Positions 5,301-41,579 of a stretch of DNA of 64,000 nt are shown in pieces. The stretch is from assembly GCF_024323335.1 (NCBI RefSeq), contig NC_066585.1:341063346-341127345 (forward strand), read 5' to 3'. The notes under the pieces were generated by a model that worked only from the letters and a program-made list of their open reading frames with translations, was not told the origin of the DNA and searched no databases. Source of the stretch: Lathyrus oleraceus (lineage: Eukaryota; Streptophyta; Magnoliopsida; Fabales; Fabaceae). The position numbers and the translations under genes were made by a program. Each line of letters starts with the position of its first letter. Within the stretch, counting starts at the first letter, position 1.

Positions 5301-5872
5301 GATGAACGGTGTTGTTGAGGCAGCAAATAAGAACATAAAGAAGATTGTGCAGAAGATGGTCGTTACGTATAGAGATTGACATGAGATGCTACCCTTCGCC
5401 TTGCATGGGTACCGTACTTCAGTACGTACATCGACCAGGGCAACCCCTTATTCCCTTGTGTATGGTATGGAAGCAGTCCTACCTGTTGAAGTTGAGATTC
5501 CTTCTCTAAGAGTCATGTTGGATGTCAAGTTAGACGAAGCAGAATGAATGGGTTCGGGCAAGGTTCAATGAGTTGAGTATTATCGAAGAGAAGCGGATGG
5601 CAGCCATTTGTCATGGGAAATTGTATCAGAGTCGGATGAAAAGAGCCTTTGATCAGAAAGTGCATCCTCGATGCTTCCAAGTCGGAGATTTAGTGTTGAA
5701 AAGGATCCTTCCTCCTAAGACAGATCACAGGGGCAAGTGGACTCCTAACTATGATGGACCGTATATTGTCACCAAGGTTTTTGATGGTGGAGCCTTAATG
5801 CTTGCAACTATGGATGGTGAAAACTTCACTTCCCCTGTGAATTCAGACACAGTTAAAAAATACTTCGCATAA
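2394..5872 (+). pseudogene. Ogre A pol exon: RT, RNase H, integrase, broken
   Basis: In order: linker starting at the DPIDNSSA region (2410), RT with VDYRDLN near 2923 and intact YVDD at 3219-3230, the degenerate RT-linked RNase H ending near 3760, the extra Tat-type RNase H (FDGAVNAKGSG near 4150, GDSALVI near 4340, MADALATLS near 4485), the integrase zinc region (CHKCQIYAD near 4930), D at WGIDMIG, D at TDNGSSLNN (5205), E at NGVVEAANKN (5305) and the GPY region near 5755. Damage: stops at 2830, 3835, 4888 and 5377; an extra A in the A-run near 3757 offset by a missing base near 3797; a GAAT duplication near 5543. In the RNase H, the catalytic Glu of the AEYEA motif reads AKYEA. Confidence 0.93.
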
Positions 5873-5883
5873 AATAGACCCGT

Positions 5884-6072
5884 TGGACGATAAAAAGAAT
5901 AGTCCAGGCAAAAAAATGGGCATCCTAGCGAACCAAGAAAATGAAAAAGGTTTAGGCAAAAGTTAGGGATTAAAAAATGAAAAGATTGTACACCCGGTAA
6001 GTTGAAAACCTGAAAGGGCAACTTAGGCAAAAATGGGTATCCCGGAGGATTGAAAACCCGAAAGGGCGATCC
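5884..6072 (+). other. Hairpin array directly after the pol stop (A)
   Basis: Four inverted repeats begin 11 bases after the pol stop: TGGAC/GTCCA (5884-5888 with 5902-5906), AACC/GGTT (5931-5934 with 5949-5952), TAAGTTG/CAACTTA (5998-6004 with 6019-6025) and GGATTG/CGATCC (6047-6052 with 6067-6072). The last two share one architecture: outer stem, AAAA bulge on the 5' side, 3-bp inner stem, GAAA loop. Each is followed by (A)GGCAAAA, twice leading into GTTAGGGATTAA. Elements B and C have the equivalent set at the same place. Function is unknown. Confidence 0.7.
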
Positions 6073-6727
6073 AGGCAAAAGTTAGGGATTAAGCGAATGG
6101 CTGCGTTCTGAGTAGTTCTGAATACCATCTCGTGTCGATAACCAGAAACTTCCGAAGGATAGGAAATAGTCCAATCACCTTTTTCGGAAAGCTGATCATC
6201 TGGAGGATCTTGAAGACGAGCGAATCATAGCAGAATTGGAACCCGATAGAAATCCATTTCACATTGCCATTAGATTAATTTATGTTTTTATCTGTTGTGC
6301 AATTACCTATTTCCAGGGATTGCTTCCTGATGTAAATACCTATTTAGAGGCCACTCAATTAATAAAATCATGTTATTCAGTGCATCTTTGTGTTCATTTT
6401 CATTTTTACTGTTTTGTTTGCAAAAATGACGTCCGAATTTTTGATAAACATTGCATCATGAAACATAAGAGCTTTACAGGTACGTGCTTAATAAACATTG
6501 AAAATTGCTGTAAATTTTAAGTGCTTTGGATCGTCTATTCAGAACAGGTACACTCGGGGCATTTCCTTAAGGTTCCCAGTAGATGATCGCGGTTGTTTTT
6601 CTTCAAGAGTGGGTATTTGGTATCGTATCCTTGCAGAGCTTATCCGAGCGTTGGATTCTTCAATCCCCAGCAGGCTTTCACTGCTGTCTTCCCCAAGCAT
6701 TTGTTTCAGATTATACGTTCACTAGTA

Positions 6728-12033: not shown

Positions 12034-12383
12034 TACATAGGCAGTAGATGCGACATCCTTGCGAGTCATTTTCTTTTAACCTTCCTTTTAGTAAATAGTA
12101 CTTTAGATATACCTATACCCTTTAGACTAGAACAACACTTATGAAAAGGGCTCCCTAAGAGTACCTAGGATGTTTTGGGTGCTTAAAACCTTCCCATTGC
12201 ATAACCAACCCCCTTACCCAGATCTCTGATATTTTTACTAGTTTTTGATTCGATAAAACTTTTAGGGTTTTGTTCGCTTTATAACCATTCCTTTGGATAA
12301 ATAGAAGTGCGGTGGCGAGTCGACTTGTATGGTTTATCTTGGATTTAGTCAATATCTCTAATGGTAACGAATACCCCGCTACA

Positions 12384-13565
12384 ATTGTGAGTAACTATTT
12401 GGTCAACCTTGGCTCCTAACTGGGTAATCAGTTCGCTAATGTGAATGTTCTGGTTCATGAACTCTTTGTTTTGTTGGGTTTGAGTAGTGATAAAATTTTC
12501 CATAATTTTCTCAAGGCTCGGCTTTGGTGGCACAGGTTGCATAGGTTGATTTGGTCTTGGGGCTTGGTAACCTGGTTGTCTCGGAGGTGTAGTATTTTGG
12601 ATAAGGTTATTGTTCTTATAGGAGAAGTTTGGGTGATTCCTCCATCCAGGGTTATAGGTATTCGAATATGGGTTCCCTTGGGCGTAGTTCACTTGCTCAG
12701 AGTTGGTTTCATTTAAGAGACTGCATTCTGCAGACTGGTGTCCTTTGGTTCCACATATCTCACAATCCGACGAAATTGCAGCTACAGTATTCGGGTTTAT
12801 GCATATATGCTCGACCTTGAGGGCCAACGCGTCCATTTTAGCTTGCATCCTGTCTATAGAGCTTAACTCATGTGCTCCTCCTTGGGCTTCCTTCTTCTCA
12901 ACTGTCACTCGTTCGACTCCCCATGATTGATGGTTTTGAGCCATATCCTCGATGAAGGCACTAGCTTCAGGGTAAGGTTTGTTCATCAGTGCACCGCCTG
13001 CGGCAGCGTCGATGGTTATCTTAGTTTTATAATGAAGTCCATTATATAAGGTCTGAATGATTAACCAATTTTCTAAACCATGATGTGGGCATGCTCTTAA
13101 CAACTCTTTATATCTCTCCCAAGCTTCGAACAACGATTCTCCTTGGTTCTGGGTAAATCTTTTTATGTGGTTTCGAAGAACAGCGGTCTTACTTGGGGGA
13201 AAGTATCTAGCCAGGAATACTTTTCTAAGGTTTTCCCAAGTTATTATGGAATTGGGTGGAAGGGAATCTAACCATGATAGGGCTTTATCTCTGAGGGAGA
13301 AAGGGAATAATCTTAAATTGATTGCCTCGGGAGAAGCTCCATTGGTTTTAAAAGTGTCTGCTAATTGGAGAAAGATTTTTAAATGTTGGTTTGGGTTCTC
13401 AGTAGCGAGACCTGCGAATTGTCTCTGTTGCACTAGTTGCAACAGGGAGGGTTTAAGTTCGAAATTATTTGTTGGGATGGTTGGGTTTACTATACTAGAA
13501 TTAGGTTCTTTGTTGGATGGTTAGGCGAAGTCCTTAAGAGGTCTTTGGTTTTGATCTTCGGTCAT
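12384..13565 (-). pseudogene. Athila-type gag, interrupted
   Basis: The start is taken at ATG 13565-13563 (MTEDQNQRP). Codon 15 is a TAA (13523-13521); the frame then stays open. It carries the usual Athila gag pattern: NFELKPSLLQLVQQ, LRLFPFSLRDKALSWL, WENLRKVFLARYFPPSK, FEAWERYKELLRACPHHG and, further on, a zinc knuckle around CEICGTKGHQSAEC. After a Pro/Gln/Asn-rich tract the frame is cut by the end of the element A LTR at 12383. Gag packages the genome in cytoplasmic virus-like particles. Confidence 0.9.
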
Positions 13566-13754: not shown

Positions 13755-15401
13755 TGATGCGTTGTTTTTCGCAAGTGTACGAACGCGTCAGAGTAATATA
13801 AAAGATTGTCGAATCCACAGAGACCAAATGTCAATCTATCGTTATCTATTGTTATGGTGTTTATCTAAGGTAATCGAAACAGGGTTTTTAAGAGTGCACA
13901 ATGAAAAATAAAGTATTAAATTCAATTCAATTAATAAAGACAGGTTCGAATGTAATTCACATAATCAATTAATAATCCAATTACTTGCTAATAGAATTAC
14001 TTATGGACAGTGTTTCCTACTTTGAAAAGAACCAATTTAACGGGAACTGTCGCTTTCGCGTATTCAGAACCGAGTTGTACTCCCTAATCAAACCCTCTTA
14101 TTGTCACTTATAAAAAGGCACGCATTGCGTTAGAGTAGTAAACCTATTTTTAAGAAATATAGTACCTTGACTAAGTTGAAAATTACTTTGACCTGGATTT
14201 CTTAACCAAAAGAGGTTCTCACGAACCAGACTCTAAACTTATAAACACGTCCGAAAATAGTTTCAAAATTACTTTTCTTTTTAAGTTAAAAACTCCTAAT
14301 GAACTAAACAAAGCACTTTCGCTATATTTGAAATAGTTAAAAACAACTAAGTTTAGACAAACGTCGGACGGCTTTCGATCTTACCCAATGGAAATTAAGT
14401 GCGGGAAAACTTAAGTTGAAAGTCAAAATAGCCCTTAAGTGTTTCTACGAACAATTGTACGGATTATCGGTTCAATTACGATCCTTACATTCTAACCTTT
14501 ATAGGTTTAGCTAGACATGGTAAAGTAAAGATGCATTTTAATTTAAATAAAAGTAGTGCGAGTGCGAGAAGTTAAATAAAAGTAGTGTGGTGCAAGAAGT
14601 AAATAAAAGTAGTGTAGTGCGGAAAATAAACGAAGTAAAGACGGTGCGGGACAGTAAACAAAGTAAAGGCAGTGTGGGAAATAAATAAAGTAAAGTGCGA
14701 GTGTGGGAAAGTAAACAAAGTAAAGGCAGTGCGGGAAATAAATAAAGTAAAGTGCGAGTGCGGGAAAGTAAAGTAGACAAAGGTAAAGCAATAAAACCTG
14801 CTCCAATCGGAGGGTCGAATAAAGTGCGTAACAGAAATAAAAATGGTGGCAGTATTAACTTCCTTCCAAAGTGCTCCAAACTCGATTACAGACTCGATTA
14901 CACAGTTGTGGCAACACTCTGATGTGAAGCGATTACCACTTTTACACAATACTGATATATGCCTAGTTGTAACTAAGTTTGGATGAAGAAACAAAATGAA
15001 GTCAAGGCTCTATTTATAGGCAAGCAAAATAATGGAAATGACAAGGATGCCCCTAAGTTTGAAAATGGGAGGGAAACATTTTGTTCTTGTGGCGCCCGCC
15101 ACAAGAGGAAATTGTGGCGCCCAAGTGGAGATAGTGGGAGATGTGGCAGTTGAGGAGAAGTTGGAACTGGGACACATCATGGTTGGACCCTTGACGCCAG
15201 CCACAGTGGGAGCCACAAGTGTAAAATCCTGATTTTTAGGCTTTTTAGCTCATTTTCACTCCTTTTCTCGATCGGGGCTCCGATTAGACTGAAAACCTGA
15301 AAACAAAGAAAAACATAGTAATAACATAACAAAATAACAATAAAACAACTAATATGCATGCGAAATCGGAGTCGAAAATACGGTGAATTTCAGTGTCATC
15401 A
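13755..15401 (-). repeat. 5' LTR of the Athila-like element (1647 bp)
   Basis: It is bounded by TGATG/CATCA inverted ends. A TATA box reads CCTATAAATAG on the minus strand at 15010-15020. A degenerate array of GTGCGGGAAATAAATAAAG-type units (57-bp period where clearest, 14672 and 14729) fills about 14557-14790. The stretch 13860-14520 holds nothing I recognise. Confidence 0.85.
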
Positions 15402-16981
15402 ATTAGGCTAATTAGATTGTTGGTTCAATTAGGTTAATAAATCTTGATTTTAGGATTTGATTAGCATATTAGGATTTAAATAGAATTTTCCTTAGAATTA
15501 ATTAGGATTTTTCCTTAGAATTTTAATTAGGAATTTTGTTAGGTTTAATTAGAAACAAATAGGATTGATTAAATTTAGAATCATCCCATTTTCAACATTA
15601 GGATTAGAATTCATCTTTAGGATTTAATCAACTTTAAACCATGGTTAGAATTTGATATATTTTGCAATTGAGCATTTTGCCCTTTATGGCCTTATTTTGT
15701 TATTTTTGTGTAAAATTGTATGCTCCCCTTAGGATTAGAATGCAATTAATTTTAGGACTTAACATAGAATTTTAGTCATGATTTTAATCAATACTTTGAC
15801 ATGCTCCCTTAGGATTTCTAATCTAACTTAGAATATTCAATCAATCCCTAATGCATGATCCCTTAGGTTAGTCTCTAACAATTACTAACTTCAATTAGAT
15901 CCAAACTTAGTTCCCTTCAAAACTAAAACCAAACCCCCAATTAAATTGATCAAAAGCAATTTTGATTAATTAAATCCTTTGAACTTGTATAATCCCCCAG
16001 TCTAATTAAGTGACCAAAAGACCCTTGGTCACTTAGTGGAACTTTTCTTTCACGCTGTGGAGCTCAAGTCCTCAAGACAAGATCTTCAATCAAGGCATCT
16101 TCGGTCATATCAAGCAGCGGATTATTCAAGCACATCAAAAGTGGCGTCTTCAACTTTCAAGCACATCAAAGGTGACGTCTTCAACTTTCAAGAACATCAA
16201 AGGTGGCATCTTCAATACTTGTTAAATCAAAGTTAGAAGTGTGTGACACGAGCCTTAAGCAATAGAGAATGAGTGGGACTGGAGTATTCCTACCCCCATT
16301 CTGAGTATCTTTGGGTATGGGATGTATGACCCAGCGCTCATCGTATTCACCTCTATTCATAGACTTTAGCACAATTCTAATCATACGATTGACAAGTCTC
16401 TCTTCACAAAGCAAAAGCAACAAAAGCAAGGATAACTTTAACAACTTATCAATCATGAATCAAGTTGTACGAGACAAGCCTTAAGTAATGGAGAAAGAGT
16501 GGGACTGGAGTATTCCAACCCCCATTCTAAGTATCTTTGGGTATGGGACGTATGACCCAGTGCTCATCGTATTCACCTCCGTTCATAGACTTTAGTGCAA
16601 TTCGAATCTAACGATTGATAAAGTCTTCATCTTCCCTACCAGAAACAACTACAAAGACACTCCTTTCTCCACTTAAAGTTTAAGACAAGGATTACATGCC
16701 ACGAGCCTTAAGTGGTAAAGAAGGAATGAGACTGGAGCTTTCCTACACTCATTCTGGATATCTTTGGGTGCGAGACGTTTGGCTCGTTGCTTATCGTATC
16801 CACCTTTACCCATAGACTTTAGGGTGATTCTTATCCAGTAACTATCAAGTCTATCCATTCTTCATTCTATTCAATTCTCAATCATTCCATTCAAATCATT
16901 CCAATCTCAATCATCCATTTCTTTTTCCTCCAATCAATTTCTTTTCAGCCCTAGTGGGCTGAACTACGAAAGCTCTGATTT

Positions 16982-18450
16982 CCTCATTGCACAATGAGGG
17001 TACGTAGGCAGGAGAACCCGGTTTCTTCGCGAGCTATCTTATTTATCAATTTACTTTTTCTATCCAATTCTCCATTCACACAACCTATACCATCTTTTTG
17101 AGATCAATCATACTGCTCCTTGGACTCCTTGTCCATCCTTTTAGGAAGTCCTAAGGACAGTCCATCTCTTCAATCGAGAGTTGTTTGGCTCTCATCCCAA
17201 ACGCTCACTTCATCTTTGTTTGACTCTCATCCCAAACACTAACTTCATCCTTGTCTGGCTCTCATACCAAACACTAACTTCATATTTGTTTGGCTCTCAC
17301 CCCAAACACTTAATTCAGTCTTTCTTTTCGGCTTTACCTTATAGTGGCGGTCCACTAGTCCATGTATTGGTAAATGCCTACCTACCTCTTCGATTGAGAG
17401 TCTATCCTTCTCTTGGATCCAAGATACTATCCTGAGTTGATCTCAAATTGCGAATTCCACAGCAAGTGATACAATCCTCCCTTGTGTGTTTGTCTTGTGA
17501 GACCCCGTTGCTTAGACAAACATCTCTCTTCCTTTCTGCTCGTAGTTCTGAACTACGAATGCTCTGACTTTCTCATTTCACGATGAGAATATGTAGGCAC
17601 GAGGATGTGAATCCTTGGCGAGCATACTTCTAATTATTCATCATTCGCCTTAGGGCATCATTCATATCTTTCACAATCCGTTATCTACTTTCGATCATAA
17701 ACCATTCACCCAGTGACATACTGTCTTTTGACATCGAAATACACTTTCCTTGGAATTCCTAACATATCCTTTTAAGACGCCTAACGAATAGTATGCATTT
17801 CACGCCTAGAGTTATTTGGCTCTCATCCCAAATATCTAATTCCTTCTTTTTAGCTAAAACCCTACAGTGGCGGTCCGCTAGTCCACGTATTGGTTAACGT
17901 TGTTTCCCTCTATGGTAGAAATATCATTTCTCTTATGGATTCCAATACACTTCCACCTTTCGATTTCAAACAATACTTATTCAGTCACTCAGCACTAGAT
18001 ACTCTATTTTGTGACTTCGGTCACTTCACTCCATTCATTTCCATGATACCTTCATATTCTACCTTCACCCACTTCATGTGATATACCTATTCTTTGAGCC
18101 AAATACATTATACCTTTGTGCTCCATCTTGTACTCTTTTTGTGAACCAAGAGCCGATTTGTTCGTCTTGTCAGACCCTGTAGTTTAGACAAACATCTCCT
18201 TACTTACTTTTGCAGTCGTACTTAGGCAACCCTTTCTTTTCAGTTATTCCAATACAGTGATACAAGTGTTATACGCCCTCACTGGTTGGTTGACACCAGT
18301 TTTACTCTTGGGTTCACATTTTCACCCCTTGTTGGAGTTCAAATCACACAATCCTTTGGTTCATACCATACTTTCTATCACACTCTTTCCACCTCCTGCC
18401 TCTAGTTCCTTGAACTACGAAGCTCTGAATTCCTCATTGCACTATGAGGA
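16982..18450 (+). other. Three stem-loops of the CTCAT..ATGAG family in B LTR
   Basis: CCTCATTG/CAATGAGG (16982-16989 with 16992-16999), TTCTCAT/ATGAGAA (17570-17576 with 17583-17589) and TCCTCAT/ATGAGGA (18431-18437 with 18444-18450). Each follows GAACTACGA(A) and GCTCTGA, and precedes TACGTAGGCA or a one-base variant. The 3' LTR copy keeps the first perfectly and has one arm mismatch in each of the other two (near 52855 and 53716). Confidence 0.65.
17182..17320 (+). repeat. 35-bp tandem repeat, 4 copies, in B LTR
   Basis: Unit starts are 17182, 17217, 17252 and 17287, with the core GGCTCTCATCCCAAAC. The homologous array is near 52443-52580 in the 3' LTR. Confidence 0.85.
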
Positions 18451-18766
18451 TACATAGGCATGACGGCCCTAATCCTCACCGATCACTTTATCTATTTCCC
18501 TTCCTTTCCCCTTATTCTTTTGCGAGTAATCTCTAGTTAACACCTATTCGAGCGAGAACAATCAAAACGGTTCCCATGGAGTACCATGGATGTTTGGGGT
18601 GCTAATACCTTCTCCTTGCATAACTGACTTCCTTACCCAGTATATCTCTTTTCCCCGGGTTTTATCGATGTTTTCCCTTCCCTTTGGGGATAAATAAAGT
18701 TTGATGGCGACTCTGTTGTATGTTCGAGCATGCGATACGTTCGGGTATATTTCCGCTAGCTTCAGC

Positions 18767-25599: not shown

Positions 25600-28488
25600 A
25601 GCAAATAAAATCAATGATTACAACGTGGCTAAAACCAATTGTGAATCTGGACTTCCAATCAACCAAGCTGAAGACGACAATGAGGAAGATTGCGAATTAC
25701 CAGTTGAACTAGCACGACTCCTTGAGCACGAAGAGAAAGAGATTCAGCTATACAAAGAACTAGTGGATGTTATTAACTTGGGTTCTGAAACTGACAAGAG
25801 GGAGGTAAAAGTTGGGGCATCTCTCGCCAAGCATGTACACTCTGAGTTGGTAGATCTGTTGCGTGAATATGTCGACGTCTTTGCTTGGTCATATCAAGAT
25901 ATGCCAGGGTTGGACACCAGCATTGTTGAACATCATCTACCGCTCAAGCCCGAATATCCTCCAGTCAAGCAGAAGCTCAGAAAGACCAGACCTGATATGG
26001 CACTCAAGATCAAGGAAGAGGTTAAAAAGCAGCTAGATGTTGGCTTCTTAGCCATTTATGAGTATCCGCAGTGGGTTGCTAATATCGTTCCAGTTCCTAA
26101 GAAAGATGGTAAAGTCAGAATGTGTGTAGACTATCGAGACCTCAATAGAGCCAGCCCAAAGGATGACTTCCCTTTGTCTCATATTGATGTTTTGGTCGAC
26201 AACACAACTCAATTCTCCTTCTTTTCTTTCATGGATGGTTTCTTCGGGTACAATCAGATAAAGATGTCACCAGATGATATGGAGAAGACAACCTTTATCA
26301 CACCTTGGGGAAATTACTGCTACAAAGTCATGCCACTCGGCTTGAAGAATGCAGGGGCAACATATTAACGTGCCATGGTAACACTCTTTCACGACATGAT
26401 TCATGAAGAGATCGAGGTTTATGTTGACAACATGATTGCCAAATCCAGGTCTGAGGAAGATCACTTGGTAAATCTGAGAAAGTTATTTGTCAGACTCCGA
26501 AAGTTTAAACTGCGTCTGAATCCGACTAAATGTACTTTTGGGGTCCGATCAGGTAAACTCCTGGATTTCATAGTCAGTCAGAAGGGTATTGAGGTTGATC
26601 AAGACAAAGTTCGAGCCATCCAAGATATGCCAGCTCCCCAAACAGAAAAAGAAGTTAGAGGCTTCCTTGGATGACTTAATTACATCTCCAGATTCATATC
26701 TCACCTGACAGCTACCTGCGAACCAATTTTCAAGTTGTTGAGAAAGAACTAATCGATTGTGTGGAACAACGATTGCCAAGGGGCATTCGATAAAATAAAA
26801 AAGTACTTGCAAGAACCACCAATATTGGTACCACCGGTTCCTGGTAGACCACTCATTATGTATCTGACAGTGTTGGATGAATCCATGGGATGCGTTTTGG
26901 GTCAACATGACGACACAGGCAAGAAAGAACATGATATCTACTATCTCAGCAAGAAATTCACTAAATGTGAGACCCGTTACTCACTTTTAAAGAAGACTTG
27001 ATGTGCCTTGACTTGGGTTGCTCGACGCCTGAGACAATATATGCTTTGCCACACTACTTTATTGATATCCAAGATGGATCCGATAAAGTATATATTTGAA
27101 AAGCCTGTTGTTACTGGTAGAATTGCCCGGTGGCAAATGCTGCTAACCGAGTATGATATACAGTATGTGACTCAGAAAGCAATAAAAGGGAGTGTTCTGT
27201 CTGACTTAGATGTACCAGCACATTGTCTAGCAATTGATGCCGATCCTGACGACATAAAGACGTTTTTGGAGAAACAACAATATCTCGAGGGTATATCCAT
27301 TACCGATAAGAAAGCTCTGAGAAGACTCTCTTCTAAGTTCTTCCTAAATGGTGATGTACTATACAAGAGGAATTATGATTCCGTACTACTCAGATGCGTA
27401 GATAGACACGAAGCTAGTACAATCATAAGGTCCATACACGAAGGCTGCGAGGGTGTACATGCGAAGGGTCCTGCTATGGCCAAGAAGATCCTCCGGGATG
27501 GTTATTATTAGACGACAATGGAGGTTGATTGCTACAACTTTGTGAAAAGATGCCATAAGTGTCAGATATATGGTGATAAGATATTTGTACCACCAACTCC
27601 ATTGAACGTTCTAACTTCTCCATGGCCTTTTTCTATGTGGGGCATCGATATGATTGGGATGATAGAACCCAAAGCTTCCAATGGACATCGATTCATCCTA
27701 ATCGCTATCGATTACTTCACGAAATGGGTCGAGGCTGCTTCATATGCCAATGTCACTCCACAAGTGGTTACTCAGTTTATCAGGAAGGAGATAAGCTACC
27801 GCTATGGGATACCTAGCAAGATCATCACTAATAACGCCAGTAATCTCAACAACACTATGATGAGGGAGTTGTGCGAGAATTTAAGATCGAGCACCACAAC
27901 TCTTCACCATATCAGCCCAAGATGAATGGTGTTGTAGAAGCAGCTAACAAGAATATTAAGAGGATCGTCCAGAAGATGCTCAAGACATACAAGGACTGGC
28001 ATGAGATGTTACCTTTCGCTTTACATGGTTACAGAACTTTAGTCCGCACATCCATTGGGGTAACTCCGTACTCTCTAGTTTATGTGATGGAGGCCGTCCT
28101 ACCAATCGAAATTGAGATTCCTTCACTCAGAGTCATCATGGAAGCAGATCTTGATGAAGCTGAATGGGTTCAATCTCGGTATGACCAACTGAATCTAATT
28201 GAAGAGAAGCGTTTGACGGTCGTGTGTCATGGTCAGTTATACCAAAGACGTCTCAAACAAGCTTTTGATAAGAAGGTTCTTCCTCGGTCATACCATGTTG
28301 GAGACCTTGTGCTCAAGAGATATTCTGCCATTCACTCGGACCCGCGAGGCAAATGGACTCCCAACTATGAGGGACCTTTCATAGTCAAAAAGGCCTTCTC
28401 AGGTGGGTCTCTAATCCTCACAACAATGGATGGGGAAGATTTGCCCTCGCCAGTGAATGTAGACATAGTCAAAAAATATTATGCCTAA
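25600..28488 (+). pseudogene. Ogre B pol exon, aRNase H deleted, broken
   Basis: RT has VDYRDLN near 26130, but the catalytic motif at 26419-26430 reads YVDN instead of YVDD. Stops are at 26366, 26672, 26750, 26999 and 27509. At about 27205 the frame passes from KAIKGSVLSD straight to LDVPAHCLAID: roughly 560 bp, encoding the extra Tat-type RNase H in A and C, are absent and the frame is kept. Integrase follows: zinc region CHKCQIYGD, WGIDMIG, NNASNLNN (the catalytic Asp position reads Asn), a one-base deletion near 27885, then NGVVEAANKN and the GPF region. In C the same stop positions read Gln, Arg or Trp. Confidence 0.92.
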
Positions 28489-29240
28489 AAAGAAATGATG
28501 AAAAGCCCGCTCGGTTAACCTCCGCAAGGTGAATCTAGGAAAAAGTGGTTATCCCGATGGACCAAAAAATGATTTGTCCATGCAAAAGTTAGGGAATATA
28601 GATGAAGCTCGATAAGTCGAAAACCCGAAAGGGCAGCTTAGGCAAAAAGGAGCATCCTGGTGGACAAAAAGAATCGAAAGATCCAGGCAAAAGTTAGGGA
28701 TAAAGGCATTGACTGTGATCCTTGAGTCTACATGTTACAAGCTAGATATCAGAGGGTCAAGAATCGATCCAGTCACCGTCAGCCGAAGCAAGGCATTGAG
28801 ATTCATATTATATGGTAGATTAAGGCCAATGTTGTAATCAATGGAGAAAATCATACAAAAATATTTCCCATTGCCATTTCAATTATTTTTTCAATTTTTA
28901 CAACATCCTCATTAAGGGCGTTTGCATCCTTGTACTCAACATATTTACAGATTCCATATCAATAAAATTCAGTTTATTCCACCAAACGTGTTTGTTCTAT
29001 GTTTTGTATGCAAAATAACTGACTTGTCTTAATCACATAATGCTCTAAAATTTCGGGGAACAATAAAAAGCTACATTAAAGAGAAATAATTTGCATTACC
29101 ATTGAAATCCGATGAACCTGATAGGTGATTGGTGACTCAACGGTAATGTTACTTGAATACCTGTGACATTCAATTGACTGGGGGCACCATGGGAACTCCA
29201 ACCTTTCAGTGTTCCTTAACAGGCAGGGGATTCCGTGATG
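28489..29240 (+). other. 3' UTR of Ogre B, left part, with hairpins
   Basis: Hairpin set: TGGAC/GTCCA (28558-28562 with 28576-28580); TAAGTCG, AAAA bulge, CCC, GAAA, GGG, CAGCTTA (28613-28640, one C.A mismatch in the outer stem); and a degraded last hairpin with a GAAA loop at 28676-28679 between TC and GA, inside TGGA/TCCA (28661-28685). The remainder to the C insertion shows no structure or coding signal. It resumes at 41580. Confidence 0.65.
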
Positions 29241-29245
29241 GCAGC
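29241..29245 (+). repeat. Target site duplication of C, left copy
   Basis: GCAGC immediately before the LTR end TGTCATAC; the same five bases follow the other LTR at 41575-41579. Confidence 0.85.
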
Positions 29246-30845
29246 TGTCATACGGTGAACTGGACTTTAGGTATTTTGCTTTTTATCGCAATGTCGCGGT
29301 TAGCAAGAGTCGCCACCGACTTTTCTTTTATCCCATAAGGAAAGGTGGAAAAGAACAGGAAAGACCTTAATTTTAAATTCTTAGGTTCGGGAGGTACTTT
29401 ATACGAAGGGAAGGTGTTAGGCACCCTTCGTATCCATGGTTATCCATGGGCTCTTAATTGCTCAATCATTTATGTTTTCTTTGTTTGAAAAAAAGCGGTT
29501 GAGAAATGTATGAAAATGTTTAGAAAATGAGAATTTAACTTTGTAATGATTCTTGCATGAATGTATACAAAGTAGTTATCTCGTTTAAGTTAGAAAATAG
29601 TTTAGAAAAATATAACTCGGCAATGATCCTAGTACGGATGTATGCTAAGTGGTGATTTTCCAAAAGAAGACGTTTGAAAGGTGCGAGGTATGAAAAGTAT
29701 ATTTTTTAGGTTATGACTGAGCAATTAAGGTTATACCTGTCCGAGGTCTTTCCGGGCATTTCCCATCCTTATGAGGGTAAAACTGTCCTTACTATTGAGA
29801 AGTAAGTAATTTTATCCTTGGGATGTTGAAGGGTCATCGTAGGGTCATCGATCGGTCATTGAAGGCAACAGTTGTGAGGATACCATAGCATTCGAAGGGA
29901 CTATCATCATTTAACCGTAGGCTACGCCGAAGGGACATCGAGGGACAAAATCGTATTTTCGAAGGCAACATCCGAGGGACCATGATTTATTCTATGATGA
30001 TTTAATCGAAGGGCCATTGCTAAGTGTATCCCCACATTCGCGGGACATGACCGATTTATACCGTAGTACCGTAAGGCCGCAAAAAGAGGTCCAAGATCAC
30101 TTATTTAAAGGTCATATTTTAAAGTCAATTAAGTAATTAAGTCCATACTAAAATCAATACATTAAAATTAATACATTGAAATTAAGACATTAAAATTAAC
30201 ACATTAAAATTAATTAGGCCACTTAGGGTGAGTCTCCACAAGGGTATCCCACAAATAAAGTGGAAGACCTAAACAGCAATCTTTTCCTGGGACATATGAA
30301 CCTTTGCAAAATTCAGCAAACGGGTTAGAACACCAAATCGGGGTGTAATCGAAGATTACACCAAAATAGTAATAGTATCAGGTAAGCAAAGCATAGTTAT
30401 AGTAAAACAGGTCAGATGGGCAAAGATCACAACAAAGCGAAGAAACAGCGGCATCCATTATAACAATTCAAAGTATCCAGGCATACTTAAGTCCACATGC
30501 AAAAACCTCAAATATATTTATGAATTAAATTATGATATCACATGCAAGTTAAGAACATAAAGCGATATCGCATGCAAATTAAGAAAATGAAGCTATAATA
30601 GTAATGCAAACCTGTTTGCAATCGAGTTACAATCTTGAGTTGGCGAGCCGGATTGAATTGGACGGAGGTAGCTTTGCGGCCGCCGGCTTTTCCTTCAGGG
30701 TTTCCTTTAGGGTTACCCGGGGTAAGTTAAACAGTAGTCTTGTAAAACACAATGCCTAAGCTGTTGGAAAAGTAAATGTGCAAAAGCGAAAACGGCCACG
30801 GAAAAAGGAATGTGAAAAAGCTCCCTTTTTAGGTTTTCAAGGTGG

Positions 30846-30855
30846 CTATTTATAT
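30846..30855 (-). promoter_or_regulatory. TATA box in C 3' LTR
   Basis: The minus strand reads ATATAAATAG, about 510 bp from the LTR start, so U3 is about 0.5 kb and R-U5 about 1.6 kb. Confidence 0.7.
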
Positions 30856-30990
30856 TAGTGTCATTAGGTCATGCATGTTGCCCAAAAAGTCTTCAACGTG
30901 CGCATGGATATAGTGGATGCAGGGCCCAACATTCCTCAACGGATCTTCAAATCTCCGAAGCGTTACCTGCGCCTACAAAGTAGGGGAATG

Positions 30991-31124
30991 GTGTGACGTT
31001 CGTCACACCATGTGTGACGCCCGTCCCATGGGTGTGCTGCGTGACGCTCGTCACGCCTTCTGTGACGCCCGTCACAAGGCTGTGTTGCGTGACGCTCGTC
31101 ACGCCCTCTGTGACGTCCGTCACA
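30991..31124 (-). repeat. Six TGACG..CGTCA palindromes upstream of the TATA box (3' LTR)
   Basis: Palindromes at 30991-31008, 31013-31028 (one arm mismatch), 31039-31056, 31061-31076, 31087-31104 and 31109-31124. Centres are 21, 27, 21, 27 and 21 bp apart, a 48-bp higher period alternating 18-mers and 16-mers. TGACG is the core bound by plant TGA-type bZIP factors, so an enhancer role is plausible but untested. Short Val/Thr-rich ORFs here are repeat artefacts. Confidence 0.8.
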
Positions 31125-31363
31125 GGCACAACATTTGTGTCTTGCGCTTTGGGCTGGGCTTTGCTGTTTGGTTCGTTTTCTTTTCTTTTTGCACCCCTTT
31201 TCTCCGCTTCCAAATAAACCACTTTCATATTATCACTGGGTGAGCGTGTAGGCCAGTTTGGGTCATTCGCGAGCTGGGCCTTTGTTCCTTTAAGTGTCAT
31301 AAAATGAGTCGGAGTGCCCTGAAATGTCTTGAAATATTAATGGGCAAATTTTGGGGTATGACA

Positions 31364-31372
31364 GCTGCCCCT
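31364..31372 (-). promoter_or_regulatory. Polypurine tract of C
   Basis: Minus strand AGGGGCAGC directly before the LTR start TGTCATACCCC. Confidence 0.82.
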
Positions 31373-31775
31373 GTTCAATATTCTTGAACCGAGAGAGTAG
31401 AATGGTATGTGCCGTTCGTGGTCTGGAGGTGAAAGATTATTGAACACTAGAATGCCCCGAAATTTTGCACTTGCCAATTAGTCTTGGTGGAGATGGGCTT
31501 AAAGATACCATCCAAGAAACTTGCTGAGGAGATTTCCAGATTGTGTCACCATTATGCTGTTGACTTCGTCGGGGAGTCAGAGTATGCTATACTGCTGGGG
31601 ATAAGGGATCAGAATAGATCGTACATTAGACCGTGTCTGAAGACCAGAGTGGGCTATCCATTAGGCAGATGACCTTGCTGAGGATGAAAAATCAGAACGG
31701 ATCGTACGCTAGATTGTATCTGAGTTGAAGATCCAAATGGGTCTTATGAGAGCCTGTATTGGAGTTGCAGGATGA

Positions 31776-32340
31776 GCCGTCCATTAGGCTGAATCTGATG
31801 ATAAAAGGGGGTAGTCGTACACTAGACTACACTTCAGACATGTACCGTACACTAGGTAGCATCTGAGGAGACAAAGGTCTTAATTGGGTCGTTCATTAGA
31901 CCGTATCAGAGCAGAATGAGCCGTCCATTAGGCCGAATCTGATGATAAAAAGGGGGTAGTCGTACACTAGACTACACTTCAGAAATGTACCGTACACTAG
32001 GTAGCATCTGAGGAGACAAAGGTCTTAATTGGGTCGTACATTAGACCGTATCAGAGCAGAATGAGCCGTCCATTAGGCCGAATCTGATGATAAAAGGGGG
32101 TAGTCGTACACTAGACTACACTTCAGAAATGTACCGTACACTAGGTAGCATCTGAGGAGACAAAGGTCTTAATTGGGTCGTTCATTAGACCGTATCAGAG
32201 CAGAATGAGTCGTCCATTAGGCCGAATCTGATGATAAAAAGGGGGTAGTCGTACACTAGACTACACTTCAGAAATGTACCGTACACTAGGTAGCATCTGA
32301 GGAGACAAAGGTCTTAATTGGGTCGTACATTAGACCGTCT
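31776..32340 (-). repeat. 144-145-bp tandem repeat, about 4 copies, in C 3' UTR
   Basis: Unit starts are at 31776, 31920, 32065 and 32209. Copies are nearly identical and contain shorter related words (CGTACACTAG, TTAGRCCG). It is analogous in place, but not in sequence, to the 105-bp array of A. Confidence 0.9.
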
Positions 32341-32487
32341 TGAAATAGTTGAAGGAATCATACGTTGGGCTGAATCAGAATGAACCGTATGTTAGGCTGT
32401 ATCTGATAATATCTGTACATGTTGTACTTGCAATAAATGTCTGGGATGGGCTTAAAGATGCCATCGTTAGGAGGATACTGAACTGTA

Positions 32488-32633
32488 GTCAGAATGAATG
32501 TCCCGGGAATTGTATCTGAGATACATATCTGGATCTTGTACATAATTGATAGAGGTGTCTGTCTGAATGAATGTTCCCGTGAATTGCATCTGGAATATGT
32601 ATCTGAGTCTTGTCTGTGATTGATAAAGGCGTC
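32488..32633 (-). repeat. 73-bp direct repeat, 2 copies, in C 3' UTR
   Basis: The units begin GTCAGAATGAATG at 32488 and GTCTGAATGAATG at 32561 and are imperfect. Confidence 0.65.
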
Positions 32634-33536
32634 TGCCTGGATGAGCCTTTTACTTTGACTATATCAGGAGGATAATTAACCCGCAAAGAAAGGTTAGCTT
32701 TATGCCATGTCATGATGCATGAGATATTTTATGCTTTCGAAAATAAATGCGAATGTTGTATGCATGCGTATGATGTGAAATGATGTAAGGAATGAGTTAT
32801 GCGTATGAGAAGTTCTGCTTGGAGACTCTACTGGGGAAAATAAATCCCCATCTACTGATTGGAGATACTTGTAATGATGACCCTTTCGCGGCAGGGGGTT
32901 GTTGACTTGGTCTGATGGCGGCAATATTCAACAGAGCCTGGCGGGGGATGGAGGAGAGGATCAATCTGTCTGATGGTGCCAACCTCTGTTGGGGGATAGC
33001 TGGCTGTGCCGGGGAATACTGCTCACTTCTTCTGGGGAAGAACAGGCTTGCTGGGGGAAGAGAATTGGTAGTGGGCTCATCGGGAGCATGATTAGACCTT
33101 ATCCTCGATCCCAAAGTCTTGTAGTAACTGCTATTGCTATTCTATGTACGTATTTTTGATAAACATTGATCATATTCAAATGCACATATTAATTCAAATT
33201 AAATCAATGGACATTTACGCAACCAAAACAGAAAAGTAAAAACAAAAGCATCTTTTTTTTTGAAAGAGGGTTGTATTGATTTTGAAAGGAGGCCTATAAA
33301 CAGGCAATTTGTGTACAAGGAGACAGAAATCCTAGTAAGAGGAAATTGTCGAAAACAAAGAGAAAGCTATGTGGAAGAAGTCCTATTGATTTCAAGCCTA
33401 CTACTGTCATTATGTCTTCGAGCATCTCATCCCTTGCTGTCGGATAGAAGTGATTGGCTTGGTCAGTCCCTCGAACTTGGATGAAAGTTGACTGAGAATG
33501 GGACATAGTCATACGCTTTAATCCCTAATTTTTGCC

Positions 33537-33705
33537 TGGACCGCCTTTTCAGGTTTTCAGTCCACCAGGATACCCTTTTGTGCCCAAGCCGCCTTTTCAG
33601 GTTTTCGACTTGCCGGGTGTACATTTTTTATATATCCCTAATTTTTGCCCGAACCCTTTTGATTCGCCGGGATGCCCTTACTTTTGCCTAGATACGTCGA
33701 TCTAG
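33537..33705 (-). other. Hairpin array directly after the pol stop (C)
   Basis: In element order: CTAGAT/ATCTAG (33705-33700 with 33693-33688, loop 6), CGAATC/GGTTCG (33666-33661 with 33655-33650, loop 5), CAAGTCG-AAAA-CCT-GAAA-AGG-CGGCTTG (33612 to 33585) and TGGACTG-AAAA-CCT-GAAA-AGG-CGGTCCA (33564 to 33537). All four stems are complete if G.U pairs are allowed. GGCAAAA or GGCACAAAA follows most of them. The set matches A and B in order and shape with changed stem bases. Confidence 0.75.
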
Positions 33706-33715
33706 CGAGTCTCTT

Positions 33716-36700
33716 TTATGCGTAGTATTTTTTAACTATGTCCGCGTTCACGGGATGTGGGAAGTCTTCACCATCCACTGTAGCAAGTATCATGGCTCCA
33801 CCAGAGAATACCTTCTTAACTACAAATGGCCCTTCGTATGTGGGAGTCCATTTGCCTCTGGGATCACTTTGGGGTAGAATGATACGCTTGATCACCAAGT
33901 CGCCAGTTTGATACACCTGTCTCTTGACTCTTTTGTTAAATGCCTGGGTCATGCGCTTCTGATATATCTGTCCATGACAAACAGCCGCCAGTCTCTTCTC
34001 ATCGATCAAGTTTATCTGATCGAGTCGCGTCTGAATCCATTCATCTTCATCTAAGCCCGCCTCTTTCATGATCCTTAGGGAGGGAATCTGAACTTCCACT
34101 GGTAAAACGGCTTCCATTCCATAGACTAAAGAGAAAGGAGTTGCCCCTGTCGAAGTGCGTACTGAAGTGCGATAACCGTGAAGGGCAAACGGTAACATCT
34201 CATGCCAGTCTTTGTATGTTACCGTCATCTTTTGTATGATCTTCTTGATATTCTTATTAGCAGCTTCTACGGCGCCATTCATCTTTGGCCGGTACGGAGA
34301 AGAGTTGTGATGCTTAATTTTGAACTGCGTGCAGAGTTCAGTAATCATCTTGTTGTTCAAATTAGTACCATTATCAGTGATAATTCTTTCAGGGATGCCA
34401 TATCGACAAATAAGACTATTCTTGATGAACCGTGCCACCACATTCTTGGTGACAGAAGCGAATGAGGCCGCCTCTACCCACTTTGTGAAGTAATCAATAG
34501 CGACGAGAATGAAGCGATGTCCATTGGAAGCCGTAGGTTTAATCTCTCCGATCATATCGATGCCCCACGTTGCAAATGGCCAAGGAGCTGTCAACACGTT
34601 CAATGGAGCAGGAGGCACATGTACTTTGTCCGCATAGATCTGACACTTGTGACAGGTTCTGGAGTGACGGTGGCAATCCGCTTCCATGGTAGACCAATAA
34701 TACCCTGATCTCAGAATCTTCTTGGCCATTGTATGTCCATTAGAATGAGTCCCAAAAATACCGTCATGCATGTCTTCCATAATCCTTTCTGCTTCCTTTT
34801 TATCCACACAGCGAAGCAGAGTCGAATCATGATTACGTTTGTATAACACTCCGTTACTCAGAAAGAATTTAGCGGAGAACTTCCTCAGGAATTTTCTGTC
34901 CTTGATGGATGCCCCTTCAGGGTATTCCTGAGCTTCTAAATATCTTCTTGCGTCGTGGAACCAAGGTTTCTCCTGTACCTTCTCAGTGTTAAGTCCATAA
35001 CAGTAAGCTGGTTCATCTGACCGTCCGATGGTAATCATGGGAGCTTCGCTGCCCCATCTGACTCTGAACATAGATGACATGGTAGCTAATGCGTCTGCCA
35101 ACTGGTTTTCCTCTCGTGGAATATGTTCAAATGTTACCTCTTCAAAATATGGGATTAATGTCATCACCTGCTCTCGATAAGGGATGAGATTTGGATGTTT
35201 AGTATCCCATTCCCCGTTGATCTGACTGATTACCAAGGCCGAATCTCCGTACACACTCAAAAACTTGATTCGCCAATCTATAGCAGCTTTGAGTCCAAAA
35301 ATACATGCTTCATACTCAGCCATATTATTGGTACAATGGAAACATAGTCTAGCCGTGAGAGGTGTATGGTAACCTCCGGGAGAAATGAGTACAACCCCAA
35401 CACCATGGCCCAATGCATTAGAAGATCCATCAAAGACCATAGTCCATCGGGATCCCCATTCGGGTCCTTCATCTGGTTTAGGTTTTCCATTATCAGTAAC
35501 AAGCATGACATCCTCATCTGGGAACTCAAAATTCATAGATTGGTAATCGTCCACCGCTTGATGAGCCAAGTGATCAGCTAGCACGCTTCCTTTGATTGCT
35601 TTCTGGGTAGTGTACTGGATATCGTACTCTGTTAAGATCATCTGCCATCTCGCTATTCTTCCGGAGAGGGCAGGCTTCTCGAACATGTATTTGATGGGAT
35701 TCATCCTAGAAATCAACAAAGTGGTCTGATTCAACATATACTGTCTTAGTCGGCGAGCAGCCCAGGCCAAAGCACAGCAAGTTCTCTCGAGCAGTGAGTA
35801 TCTTGTTTCACAGTCGGTAAACTTTTTGCTCAGGTAGTATATGGCATGCTCTTTTCGACCAGACTCGTCATGTTGCCCCAATACGCACCCCATTGAATTT
35901 TCTAACACGGTCAAATACATGATTAGAGGTCTTCCTTCAACTGGTGGTATCAGAATCGGAGGTTCCTGGAGATATTTCTTGATTTTGTCAAAAGCTTCTT
36001 GACATTCCTCATTCCATATCATCTTTTGATTTTTCCTCAGTAGCTTGAAGATGGGTCTGCAAGTAGCGGTCAAGTGGGAGATAAATCGAGCAATGTAGTT
36101 CAAGCGTCCCAAGAAACCTCTGACTTCTTTCTCCGTACGGGGAACTGGCATTTCTTGAATAGCCTTCACTTTAGCCGGGTCAACCTCGATTCCTTTACCG
36201 CTGACAATAAAGCCCAAGAGTTTACCGGATCTCACTCCAAAAGTGCATTTGTTTGGATTCAATCTCAACTTGTACTTCTTCAACCTCTCGAACAGTTTGT
36301 ATAAGTGATCGAGATGTTCTTCTTCAGCATGAGATCTAGCTATCATGTCGTCCACATATACTTCTATCTCATGATGAATCATATCATGGAACAAAACCAC
36401 CATAGCACGCTGGTACGTTGCCCCAGCGTTCTTTAGACCAAATGGCATTACTTTATAACAGAACGTGCCCCATTGCGTCACAAACGTAGTCTTCTCCATG
36501 TCCTCAGGCGCCATCTTAATCTGGTTGTAACCCGAGAATCCATCCATGAATGAGAATACTTTGTGTTGAGCGGTGTTATCTACCAGAACATCAATGTGCG
36601 GGAGCGGAAAGTCGTCTTTGGGACTTGCTTTATTCAGGTCTCGGTAATCTACGCACATTCGCACCTTACCATCCTTCTTTGGCACAGGCACCACATTAGC

Positions 36701-37187
36701 AACCCATTGAGGATAAGAAGTAACGGCTAGGAAACCGGCATTGAATTGTTTCATAACCTCGGCTTTGATTTTCTCAGACATTTCGGGACGCATGCGGCGA
36801 ACCTTTTGCTTGACAAGACGGCAGTCTTCCTTCGTAGGCAGCCGATGCACCACTATATTAGTATCCAACCCGGGCATGTCTTCATAAGACCAAGCAAAAA
36901 CCTCCACATAGTCGTGCAACATCTGGATCAACCTTACTTTCACACTACTTTCCAAATCTGCTCCTATTTTGACTTCTTTTCTGTCTACCTCAGTACCCAG
37001 GTTTACGATTTCGAGGGACTCTTCATGCGGCTGTATAATCCTTTCCTCTTGCAGTAACAATCTGGCAAGCTCTCCAGGGACTTCACAATCTTCCTCACTT
37101 CCATCTTCGGCTTGGTAGATCGGATTTTCAAAGTCATAATGAACAGTAGCGGAATTATTATCAATAGGATCCAGAGTGGATACGGAT
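33716..37187 (-). CDS. C pol exon: RT, RNase H, integrase (intact)
   Basis: Open from the TTGCAG acceptor to TAA 33718-33716, 1156 complete codons before the stop. RT has VDYRDLN near 36640 and YVDD at 36347-36358. The degenerate RT-linked RNase H ends near 35830. The second, Tat-type RNase H has FDGSSNALGHG near 35410, AEYEA, GDSALVI and LADALATMS. Integrase has an HHCC zinc region, D at WGIDMIG near 34560, D at TDNGTNLNN near 34360, E at NGAVEAANKN near 34270, and a GPF motif near 33830. No chromodomain is seen. Spliced to the gag exon it makes a continuous 1525-residue frame. Expected role: cDNA synthesis and integration in Gag particles, but with no protease to cut the polyprotein. Confidence 0.93.
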
Positions 37188-37398
37188 CTGCAATTTGTTA
37201 CGTGAGTGTGTGCAAGAAAGCATAGCTTATTTGAAAAATAACAGGAAAGATAAAGAGCGCAATATTTGAATGCAAAAAAGTCCATTGATTTATTGAATAT
37301 GAATATGCTTATGAAAAATGACAAACCCTTAAAATTAGCTATTATGCCCCGGGTATAGACACAATGCTTTGAAGCACTAAAATAGCAATAACAATTAC
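37188..37398 (-). other. Intron between gag and pol of C
   Basis: Donor GA|GTAATT with GT at 37398-37397; acceptor TTGCAG ending at 37188. The gag-frame stop TAA (37397-37395) is inside the donor. Removing 211 bases joins the frames exactly. No TA tract is present, unlike A. Confidence 0.85.
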
Positions 37399-38504
37399 TC
37401 CTGACTAAAGGAAATCGGGATAGTGTCTTCAGCCTTCCAATTATTGGGTCCGTCACCAATTGTTGGGAAAATCCAGCTATCCAAGTCATAATCGTTATCA
37501 GTATCTTCCACAGCATTGACAGTCTCGTCATGATTAGGCAGAGGGGCAGTGATGCCATTAGGAGTCTCCGGAGGATCAAAGATAGTCGCCTGTATCTTCC
37601 CACTTCGAATGCCACTTTCAACATGTTCACCTGTTAATATAAGTTCAGTGAAACCCAATGAGGAACTCCTCAATAGATGGCTGTAGAATGGGCCAGTCAG
37701 TGTGCTCATGAACATGTCCACTAATTCTCGATCAGTCATAGGGGGTTTGACTCTGCCAGCCAAATCTCTCCACTTTTGAGCATATTCTTTGAAACTTTCT
37801 TTAGATCCCATAGTCATATTCTGCAACTGTAGCCGAGTAGGCGCTAGTTCAGAATTATACTGGTACTGTTTATAGAAAGCAGTTGCTAAATCAGTCCATG
37901 TGTGGATGTCAGAGCTCTCGAGCTGATAATACCACTCCAATTGTGTGCCAGACAGACTCTCTTGGAAGAAATGGATCCAGAGCTTCTTATTAGTGGTATA
38001 CGGCTGAATCTTTCTCACGTAAGCTCTCAGATGCATCTGAGGACAAGATGCCCCATCATACTGAATGAAAGCGGGGACCTTGAATTTGCGAGGAATGATC
38101 ACATCGGAGACTAGACCCAAACTTTCAAAATCCAGACCGGGCGCCTTCTGACCTTCCATAGCTAGCATGCGTTCTTCCAGCAACTTGTACTTGCCATCTT
38201 TTGGAGAGTACTGTTCATTCTCGTAATCTTCATCGTCATCCTCAGGGTTGAAAGGATCAGCATTCTCATCTTCTGAATCTGTCTCTGTTTCCTCTTCTTG
38301 ATCCTTCGGAATTCTGACTTTGATTCCCGCAGCCTGTCCTTTAAGCCTTCTTCCCGGGTTAATGTAACTCACAGCTTTCTTGTCTTTCTTTTTCTCGAGC
38401 AAGAGAGCTTTCAGTTCCTCCTGCCCCCTGGATAAGTTCAAGATCATCTCCTGGAGTTGAGCATTCTGAGCATGGAGATCCTTGACAGTTTGTTCGAGGT
38501 CCAT
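37399..38504 (-). CDS. C gag exon, fused to the pre-intron tail, protease absent
   Basis: ATG 38504 (MDLEQTVKDL) opens a Leu-rich, probably coiled-coil N-terminus (residues about 1-50), then an acidic stretch (about 85-115), the capsid region (FQESLSGTQLEWYYQL, FKEYAQKWRDLAG, MTDRELVDMFMSTL, about 150-300) and SGIRSGKIQATI. The protein then passes at about residue 310 into the short acidic tail that in A lies between protease and intron (VNAVEDTDNDYDLDSW). In B about 2.3 kb separate these two points, including zinc knuckle and protease. Unspliced RNA ends at TAA 37397-37395, giving 369 residues. Confidence 0.9.
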
Positions 38505-38636
38505 TTTTCTGTTTGGAGGAAAACCGTGAGAACACTGATCCCTTTAGAGTACCTGTTATGCTATGTTATGCTATGCAATGCATGAAATGTTTTCAAGGCC
38601 TTTTGGAATTTAACTTTGCATAAACTACCGAAAAGG

Positions 38637-38668
<32 letters not shown>

Positions 38669-39433: not shown

Positions 39434-39451
39434 TCCCCAGCAGAGTCGCCA
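39434..39451 (-). promoter_or_regulatory. PBS of C
   Basis: The minus strand reads TGGCGACTCTGCTGGGGA, four bases inside the LTR; identical to the PBS of B and D. Confidence 0.88.
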
Positions 39452-39455
39452 GTTC

Positions 39456-41574: not shown

Positions 41575-41579
41575 GCAGC
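41575..41579 (+). repeat. Target site duplication of C, right copy
   Basis: GCAGC, matching 29241-29245. Confidence 0.85.

Follow-up and report, generated by a model that had tools for sequence, protein, structure and literature searches.

In the RNA of Tat/Ogre-type retroelements, the untranslated region that follows pol opens with a structured RNA domain, which is present as an array of two to four tandem modules across copies, keeps its place at the pol stop codon and undergoes paired changes that preserve its stems. The structure is real and far more widespread and regular than had been noted in a first-pass annotation of the same DNA, and we assign a probability of roughly 0.93 to its being selected as RNA. 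Present tens of thousands of times, it would then perhaps rank among the most numerous selected RNA structures of this plant genome. Because it covaries and comes in thousands of natural versions, such a cis-acting RNA provides a handle on binders, RNA stability, export and packaging.

Host elements and anatomy of the array

The window, by which we mean the whole 64-kb stretch of DNA that was analysed, is part of contig C7 of a 3.80-Gb assembly and contains three Tat/Ogre-type elements, A and B on the plus strand and C on the minus strand. Their pol stop codons are located at 5870..5872 (A, +, the protein end being KKYFA), 28486..28488 (B, +) and 33716..33718 (C, -); the pol frames of A and B are broken and that of C is open over 1304 aa. 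Pfam places RT, RNase H, a second, aRH-like RNase H and integrase in the C pol (33716..37630, -), in the order RT_RNaseH 567-669, RVT_3 743-851 and integrase from 942, with RVT_3 presumably corresponding to aRH as judged from its place. The second (aRH) RNase H assigns C to the Tat clade of Ty3/gypsy, and its location between RH and INT is that of Ogre/Retand, a feature that does not separate Ogre from Retand; the aRH definition of Tat is that in the excerpted text of PMC6317226, and Ogre proper is recognised by a short intron gap between its gag-pro and RT-INT ORFs. Because the mechanically called ORFs of C (gag 37395-38504, pol 33716-37630) overlap in different frames with no gap between them, protease and splice sites are unlocated, and the A and B frames are broken, we use the label Tat/Ogre-type and not Ogre proper. 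The LTRs of C (29245-31368 and 39455-41579) share 99.86% identity across 2,125 bp, so that C is young, and GCTGC flanks the element on both sides, the 5-bp target duplication of a Ty3/gypsy LTR element. C (29245-41579) has integrated into the 3' part of B and is enclosed by the B LTRs (15090-18764 and 50349-54049, 95.7% identical); from the coordinates the distance between pol stop and 3' LTR is ∼2.3 kb in C and ∼9.5 kb in B without the C insertion. Between C and the B 3' LTR are two tandem, partly palindromic repeat clusters, 42911-43505 and 47795-48062, around AGAGGGCGCTTT..AAAGCGCCCTCT. The sole match in an Rfam scan of the window is the plant C/D snoRNA snoR71 at 13075-13181 (+; 47.5 bits, E 1.5e-6), opposite a gag-like ORF at 12345-13442 (-); no Rfam family reaches its gathering threshold in the array, where three weak matches (E 2.7-9.2) fall far below the thresholds.

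Four tandem modules follow the pol stop in each of A, B and C, which confirms, and enlarges, the hairpin series that the first-pass annotation had described as common to the three elements. The span then given in A, 5884-6072, does hold the array and is clipped at both ends, the true span being 5878-6089. All modules are built on one plan, in which an outer stem encloses a short link on the 5' side, an upper stem and, on the 3' side, a conserved unpaired strand, (A)GGCAAAA plus a few letters; modules 3 and 4 (module 4 in A and C only) add an AAAA bulge, a 3-bp inner stem and a GAAA loop. Of modules 3 and 4, the upper and inner portions had been recognised earlier, and the sequence does contain the bulge, inner stem and loop just named, and GGCAAAA, as described; the enclosing outer stems, ACCC/GGGT and ATCCY/GGGAT, had been missed. 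These outer stems, together with the kinship of modules 1-2 with modules 3-4, are new.

In A, module 1 (5878..5921, +) comprises the outer stem CCC/GGG (ACCC/GGGC), the upper stem TGGAC/GTCCA and the 3' strand GGCAAAAAAAT, and module 2 (5922..5970, +) comprises ATCCT/GGGAT, GAACC/GGTTT and GGCAAAAGTTA. Module 3 (5992..6038, +) has ACCC/GGGT as outer and TAAGTTG/CAACTTA (from 5998) as upper stem, followed by the AAAA bulge, CCT/GGG, the GAAA loop and GGCAAAAAT; the corresponding parts of module 4 (6039..6089, +) are ATCCC/GGGAT, GGATTG/CGATCC, AAAA, CCC/GGG, GAAA and AGGCAAAAGTTA. Each even module of A begins one base past the end of the odd module (5921/5922, 6038/6039), and because they adjoin directly the two could stack end to end.

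Modules 1 and 2 of B occupy 28504..28598 (+), module 1 being unlike the AGCC/GGCT plus CTAGATT/AATCTAG form of most other B-type copies; among the 20 B-type copies of sample (iii), below, it is closed by AGCC/GGCT in 17. Module 3 (28607..28653, +) pairs GCTC/GAGC on the outside and TAAGTCG/CAGCTTA (from 28613) above, with the single mismatch, C-A, that had been reported for it. Module 4 (28654..28701, +) combines the outer stem ATCCT/GGGAT with a basal TGGA/TCCA and a short apex. This fourth hairpin had been called degraded; its apex CCY-GAAA-RGG is indeed absent, as it is from 20/20 B-type copies, making the short apex a family trait, and 13/20 of these copies retain the basal TGGA/TCCA with every letter unchanged. 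On the minus strand, modules 1 and 2 of C (33632..33711, found by fold and by model R1, below) form TAGAT/ATCTA and, within an outer ATCCC/GGGAT, CGAATC/GGTTCG; module 3 (33572..33618, -) consists of ACCC/GGGT, CAAGTCG/CGGCTTG (from 33612, minus), CCT/AGG and GAAA, and module 4 (33521..33571, -) of ATCCT/GGGAT, TGGACTG/CGGTCCA, CCT/AGG and GAAA. The arms previously listed for the third hairpin in A, B and C, and for the fourth in A and C, are thus all in the sequence. Outer stems of modules 2 and 4 follow ATCCY/GGGAT, with GGGAA and the loss of one pair in B module 2, and the loosest outer stem is that of module 1 (ACCC/GGGC in A, ACTC/GGGC in C, unclear in B). Folds of single sequences recover the outer stem for module 2 in A, B and C, module 3 in C, module 4 in A and C and module 1 in A and B, and RNAalifold, unprompted, gives it for modules 2, 3 and 4 from the three-copy alignment with flanks.

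Folding and occurrence in the genome

Model R1, which represents modules 3+4 of A, B and C, finds modules 1+2 in all three elements, with E values of 1.8e-10 in A (5877-5972, +), 1e-8 in B and 4.6e-7 in C, the next best match in the window having E 0.08. The three-copy alignment folds at -29.5 versus -13.7 +/- 3.4 kcal/mol for column shuffles (z -4.6, 0/1000 as low), with an RNAalifold covariation term that, taken alone on three copies, is ordinary (532/1000 shuffles as good). Over the 12 modules, own upper arms pair at 68/84 positions versus 56.3 when the arms are re-dealt, and 7/100,000 deals do as well; the corresponding fractions are 2/720 for modules 3+4 alone and 60/720 for modules 1+2 alone. 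Standard pairs make up 95.2% of the pair cells in the three copies, which show 6 double changes, a number attained by 7/500 shuffles. Single modules as a rule fold no better than shuffles (n=12, z -1.81 to +0.56; for the best of them 6/200 shuffles are as good), and the single-sequence folding energies of whole blocks provide no support (z -1.19, +0.53, -0.94).

Throughout the 3.80-Gb genome the inner motif GAAAACCYGAAAGGG occurs in 39,127 + 39,136 exact copies (78,263), versus 6 + 7 (13) for the reversed control, and the pol tail AARAARTAYTWYGCNTAA in 26,601 + 26,313 versus 3 + 7 for its control; with 52,914 exact pol tails, elements with such a pol end are very abundant. Among the 48 motif-chosen loci of sample (i), corresponding to 46 distinct arrays (L043/L044 and L048/L049 overlap), a recognisable pol end lies just upstream in 45, L078 and L085 have pol remains, and L051, where the retrieved stretch falls short of pol, has the pol tail matched at its place. 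Sample (ii) consists of 70 loci chosen by the 18-nt pol tail only, among 100 listed, namely the first 30 together with 40 that were hand-picked, not at random, from the remaining 70; all lie within the initial 8.3 Mb of a single contig. The array is present in 70/70, and at each locus every match falls on the same strand, downstream of the pol tail. Sample (iii) comprises 20 of 150 scored relatives of the B pol, from contigs C1 to C7, and both module pairs are found in 20/20 of these B-type copies. Since inclusion in any of the samples depended on a well-preserved pol end or motif, decayed copies are under-represented. Loss of the array from most young intact copies, which the first-pass annotation had named as evidence that would speak against it, was not observed: the young element C, with an open pol, keeps its array, as do 70/70 copies with the exact 18-nt pol tail, and of the copies C is the one dated by its LTRs. 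The array is a useful annotation marker for the pol ends of Tat/Ogre-type elements. Three of the pol ends, L108-L110 (G000:C1:1962566, 1970300 and 1978035), have identical array scores and a regular spacing of ∼7.7 kb and are for these reasons probably a tandem array of an element segment.

The carriers of the array belong to the Tat clade (Ogre, Retand). The excerpted text of PMC6317226 covers the ORFs, intron, primer sites and tandem repeats of Tat clades, and the array is not among these; in the open-licence literature neither a description of the array nor its motif letters were found, with most subscription papers outside this scope, so that novelty is unproven. A pattern search of a viral contig collection gave 0 matches, and in a protein search of viral contigs 2 stretches matched a pattern, neither of them confirmed; a relaxed pattern applied to genome contigs gave 40 stretches, all 40 bacterial or archaeal by title, with no tblastn pol match and no module context.

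Paired changes, strand and conservation

Stem variants were tabulated in 73 primary arrays, the 70 of sample (ii) together with A, B and C. The odd outer stem reads ACCC/GGGT in 42, GCTC/GAGC in 17, ACTC/GAGC in 4 and ACTC/GAGT in 3, and the even outer stem reads GTCTC/GAGAC in 25, ATCCC/GGGAT in 21 and ATCCT/GGGAT in 18; between families the outer stems switch as pairs, ACCC/GGGT to GCTC/GAGC and ATCCC/GGGAT to GTCTC/GAGAC. Upper stems occur in 18 (odd) and 20 (even) forms. The AAAA bulge is kept in 66/73 odd and 67/73 even modules and a GNRA loop in 63/73 and 56/73, respectively, and the stem frame with its GGCAAAA strand recurs in more modules than does the apex. Three loci of the GTCTC family, L053, L060 and L067, carry a second module pair whose inner stem differs and whose loop is not GNRA (CCCCACCTTGGGG type in L060, where the apex is CCCC/GGGG), and from these different apices it appears that an apex is exchangeable above a stem that is retained.

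When further copies are aligned, the fraction of standard pair cells is 93.5% for the window copies plus motif-selected loci (45 distinct matches), 93.9% for the window copies plus sample (ii) (110 distinct) and 92.3% for 136 distinct matches (152 matches, of which the best 150 were aligned, L109 and L110 being omitted as repeats of L108), with 172, 422 and 557 double-change cells versus 53.8, 152.8 and 193.5 in shuffles, values of both kinds that are reached by 0/500 shuffles in all three sets and that are to be read with the caveat that the alignments are fitted to the model and lean towards structure. By cruder measures, further pair types are matched by 141/500 shuffles (45-match set) and 35/500 (136-match set), and the number of pairs with a double change by 6/500 (136-match set).

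In order to take the tree into account we used our own R-scape-like script, in which parsimony substitutions on a tree are re-dealt per branch to columns by rate and evaluated by a G-test with APC. On the pol-tail tree there are 14 pairing-keeping double changes versus 1.08 expected (largest of 400 simulations, 4), and with all rows 21 versus 1.89 (largest simulation, 7); over all versions the aggregate is 13-21 versus 1-2 expected, and 0 of 400-500 simulations yield as many. Pair by pair, 0/29 pairs are significant for the primary arrays on the pol-tail tree and 1/29, an outer pair, for all rows, from which we conclude that the power of the single-pair test is low. Pooling the modules presumes that they are mutual duplicates, as supported by their shared motifs and by the model R1 matches, and it gives 5/14 pairs at E<0.05 (two outer, three upper) and 14 double changes versus 1.16 in a set of 124 distinct modules kept of 254, those with >8 gaps having been dropped. 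Inclusion of the B-type copies (179 distinct modules retained from 300, with 28 excluded because of gaps) gives 3/14 pairs (two outer, one upper) and 13 double changes versus 1.17. No pair outside the structure, and none in the inner stem, is significant in any tree-aware test. The first-pass annotation had expected covariation above the phylogenetic level; this holds in aggregate in every version run, and, once the modules are pooled, for several of the outer and upper pairs, and it fails for nearly all pairs taken one at a time and for the inner stem throughout. Its proposal of selection on RNA shape is supported by the aggregate signal, for paired bases change together and the RNA shape itself therefore appears to be kept by selection.

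With respect to strand, the 73 primary arrays contain 171 G-U versus 19 A-C cells, as expected for sense RNA. Counted by events the G-U:A-C ratios are 35:19 (p 0.13) and 47:25 (p 0.013), an excess that amounts to a lean and is not proof of the sense strand; the same test is flat on the 12 window modules (7 G-U, 6 A-C) and becomes informative only with more copies. Selection on structure in the sense RNA is well supported. Third positions of the last 84 pol codons are 39, 43 and 35% identical (A-B, A-C and B-C), and 50 columns from +133, covering modules 3-4, are 80, 82 and 80% identical. The whole block, gaps counted, gives 57, 69 and 59%, low values that arise because modules 1-2 are much less conserved, and beyond the block (A positions 225-500 after the stop) identity is 46, 46 and 40%.

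It might be argued that the modules, which look like tandem duplicates, are a neutral repeat or a DNA-level palindrome with no RNA role, and both the folding of single sequences no better than shuffles and the per-pair covariation, mostly below significance, would fit such a view. Already disfavoured, it is rendered very improbable by paired changes far above tree-aware simulations, by conservation of modules 3-4 above that of third codon positions and by the preference for G-U over A-C cells.

The array is non-coding, with stops in the first <=200 nt in 67, 69 and 70 of 70 copies for the three frames. Read-through of the pol stop was dropped as a candidate, as no frame is open downstream as a rule and CARYYA is absent after the stop in 70/70. 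Also dropped were a decoy 5' splice site, a motif with G at +5, since AG followed by GCAAAA lacks that G, and a polypurine tract, the array letters being absent before the 3' LTRs of B and C.

Possible roles at the pol stop codon

The first model position lies 2-34 nt after the pol stop in 70/70 copies of sample (ii), the type of position held by the RSE of Rous sarcoma virus, an RNA stabiliser directly downstream of a stop codon according to the excerpted text of PMC5580461. Because the array starts <=34 nt from the stop in every one of these copies, ahead of kilobases of untranslated RNA, our tentative preference, held at clearly less than even odds, is for a multivalent protein-binding, post-stop stability element like the RSE. 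Fixed unpaired letters recur on stems whose letters vary, and this suggests a multivalent protein site, in which the unpaired A-rich strands and loops of several modules would jointly bind a protein, of the host or Gag, with the stems serving only to present the unpaired letters. So occupied, the array would coat the RNA just behind the terminating ribosome and keep it from decay, and a role of this kind in RNA fate at termination is favoured by the constant proximity to the stop codon. That the array might be a plant counterpart of the RSE, a modular retroelement RNA domain coupled to translation termination, is a more doubtful proposition. Both adjoin a retroelement stop codon and have a long RNA tail (excerpted text of PMC5580461); the RSE follows gag, extends over ∼400 nt and is a tested stabiliser, whereas the array follows pol, is modular, comes from a plant and is known from sequence alone; the likeness is one of position.

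Several points count against a post-stop stability role. The array may be found at the stop merely as the first free non-coding space, translation of unspliced Ogre RNA would end at gag-pro, far upstream, and a peak of AATAAA downstream (see below) hints at a short 3' UTR, where protection matters less. Packaging and export are close rivals. As a packaging element, an unlikely role in our estimation, the tandem hairpins would be bound by Gag, which would thereby select full-length RNA for the particle. Several like modules with fixed unpaired letters do resemble a multivalent binding site, and the number of modules varies, with 2 to 5 GGCAAAA-like motifs in the first 330 nt in 64/70 copies; however, packaging needs no position tied to the stop codon, and among the 48 motif-selected loci, a small sample, there is no array without pol remains, so that pol-less derivatives keeping the array were not seen. 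Tandem hairpins that bind coat protein, with a fixed short single-stranded motif between them, are found at the 3' end of alfalfa mosaic virus RNA; tandem hairpins and a fixed motif are common to both systems, and the motif, host and replication differ, making this an analogy.

Nuclear export of unspliced or intron-poor RNA, in the manner of the CTE or the mouse RTE/MTE, would be a further role, which we consider less likely still. The CTE of MPMV, which contains repeated internal loops, lies behind the last gene, as do retroviral export elements more generally, and this speaks for an export role. Against it, the plant RNA export machinery differs from that of CTE/RTE/MTE hosts, plants are not known to have a clear NXF1, and the array bears no Rfam likeness to a known export element. 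The IAP RTE and MusD MTE are cis-acting structured export RNAs (excerpted text of PMC12786077), and the array too is a putative cis-acting structured RNA, with no sequence likeness shown. Consistent with export, Ogre transcripts of pea and Medicago are only partly spliced (excerpted text of PMC6317226); according to the excerpted text of a 2025 review (PMC12786077), the export of plant LTR-element RNA has yet to be studied directly.

Finally, the array could tune an internal poly(A) site ∼400-510 nt downstream, or termination/recycling, which is an improbable role for it. Control of translation is disfavoured by the absence of CARYYA in 70/70, read-through being unlikely, and control of the 3' end by the absence of AATAAA from C within 700 nt after the stop and from 21/70 copies at 250-620 nt. 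In its favour, 3'-end control would separate an mRNA pool from genomic RNA, and BARE elements use separate RNA pools (excerpted text of PMC3735527). AATAAA occurs 250-620 nt after the stop in 49/70 copies (L089-L158) versus 20.9 expected from first-order resampling (largest of 200, 36), with a peak ∼380-540 nt behind the pol stop and, in several copies, TTTGTA-like letters before it. The peak is possibly an internal poly(A) site well before the LTR, and it makes an internal 3' end, and with it a distinct pool of mRNA, more likely. The window has AATAAA at 6361-6366 in A and 28961-28966 in B.
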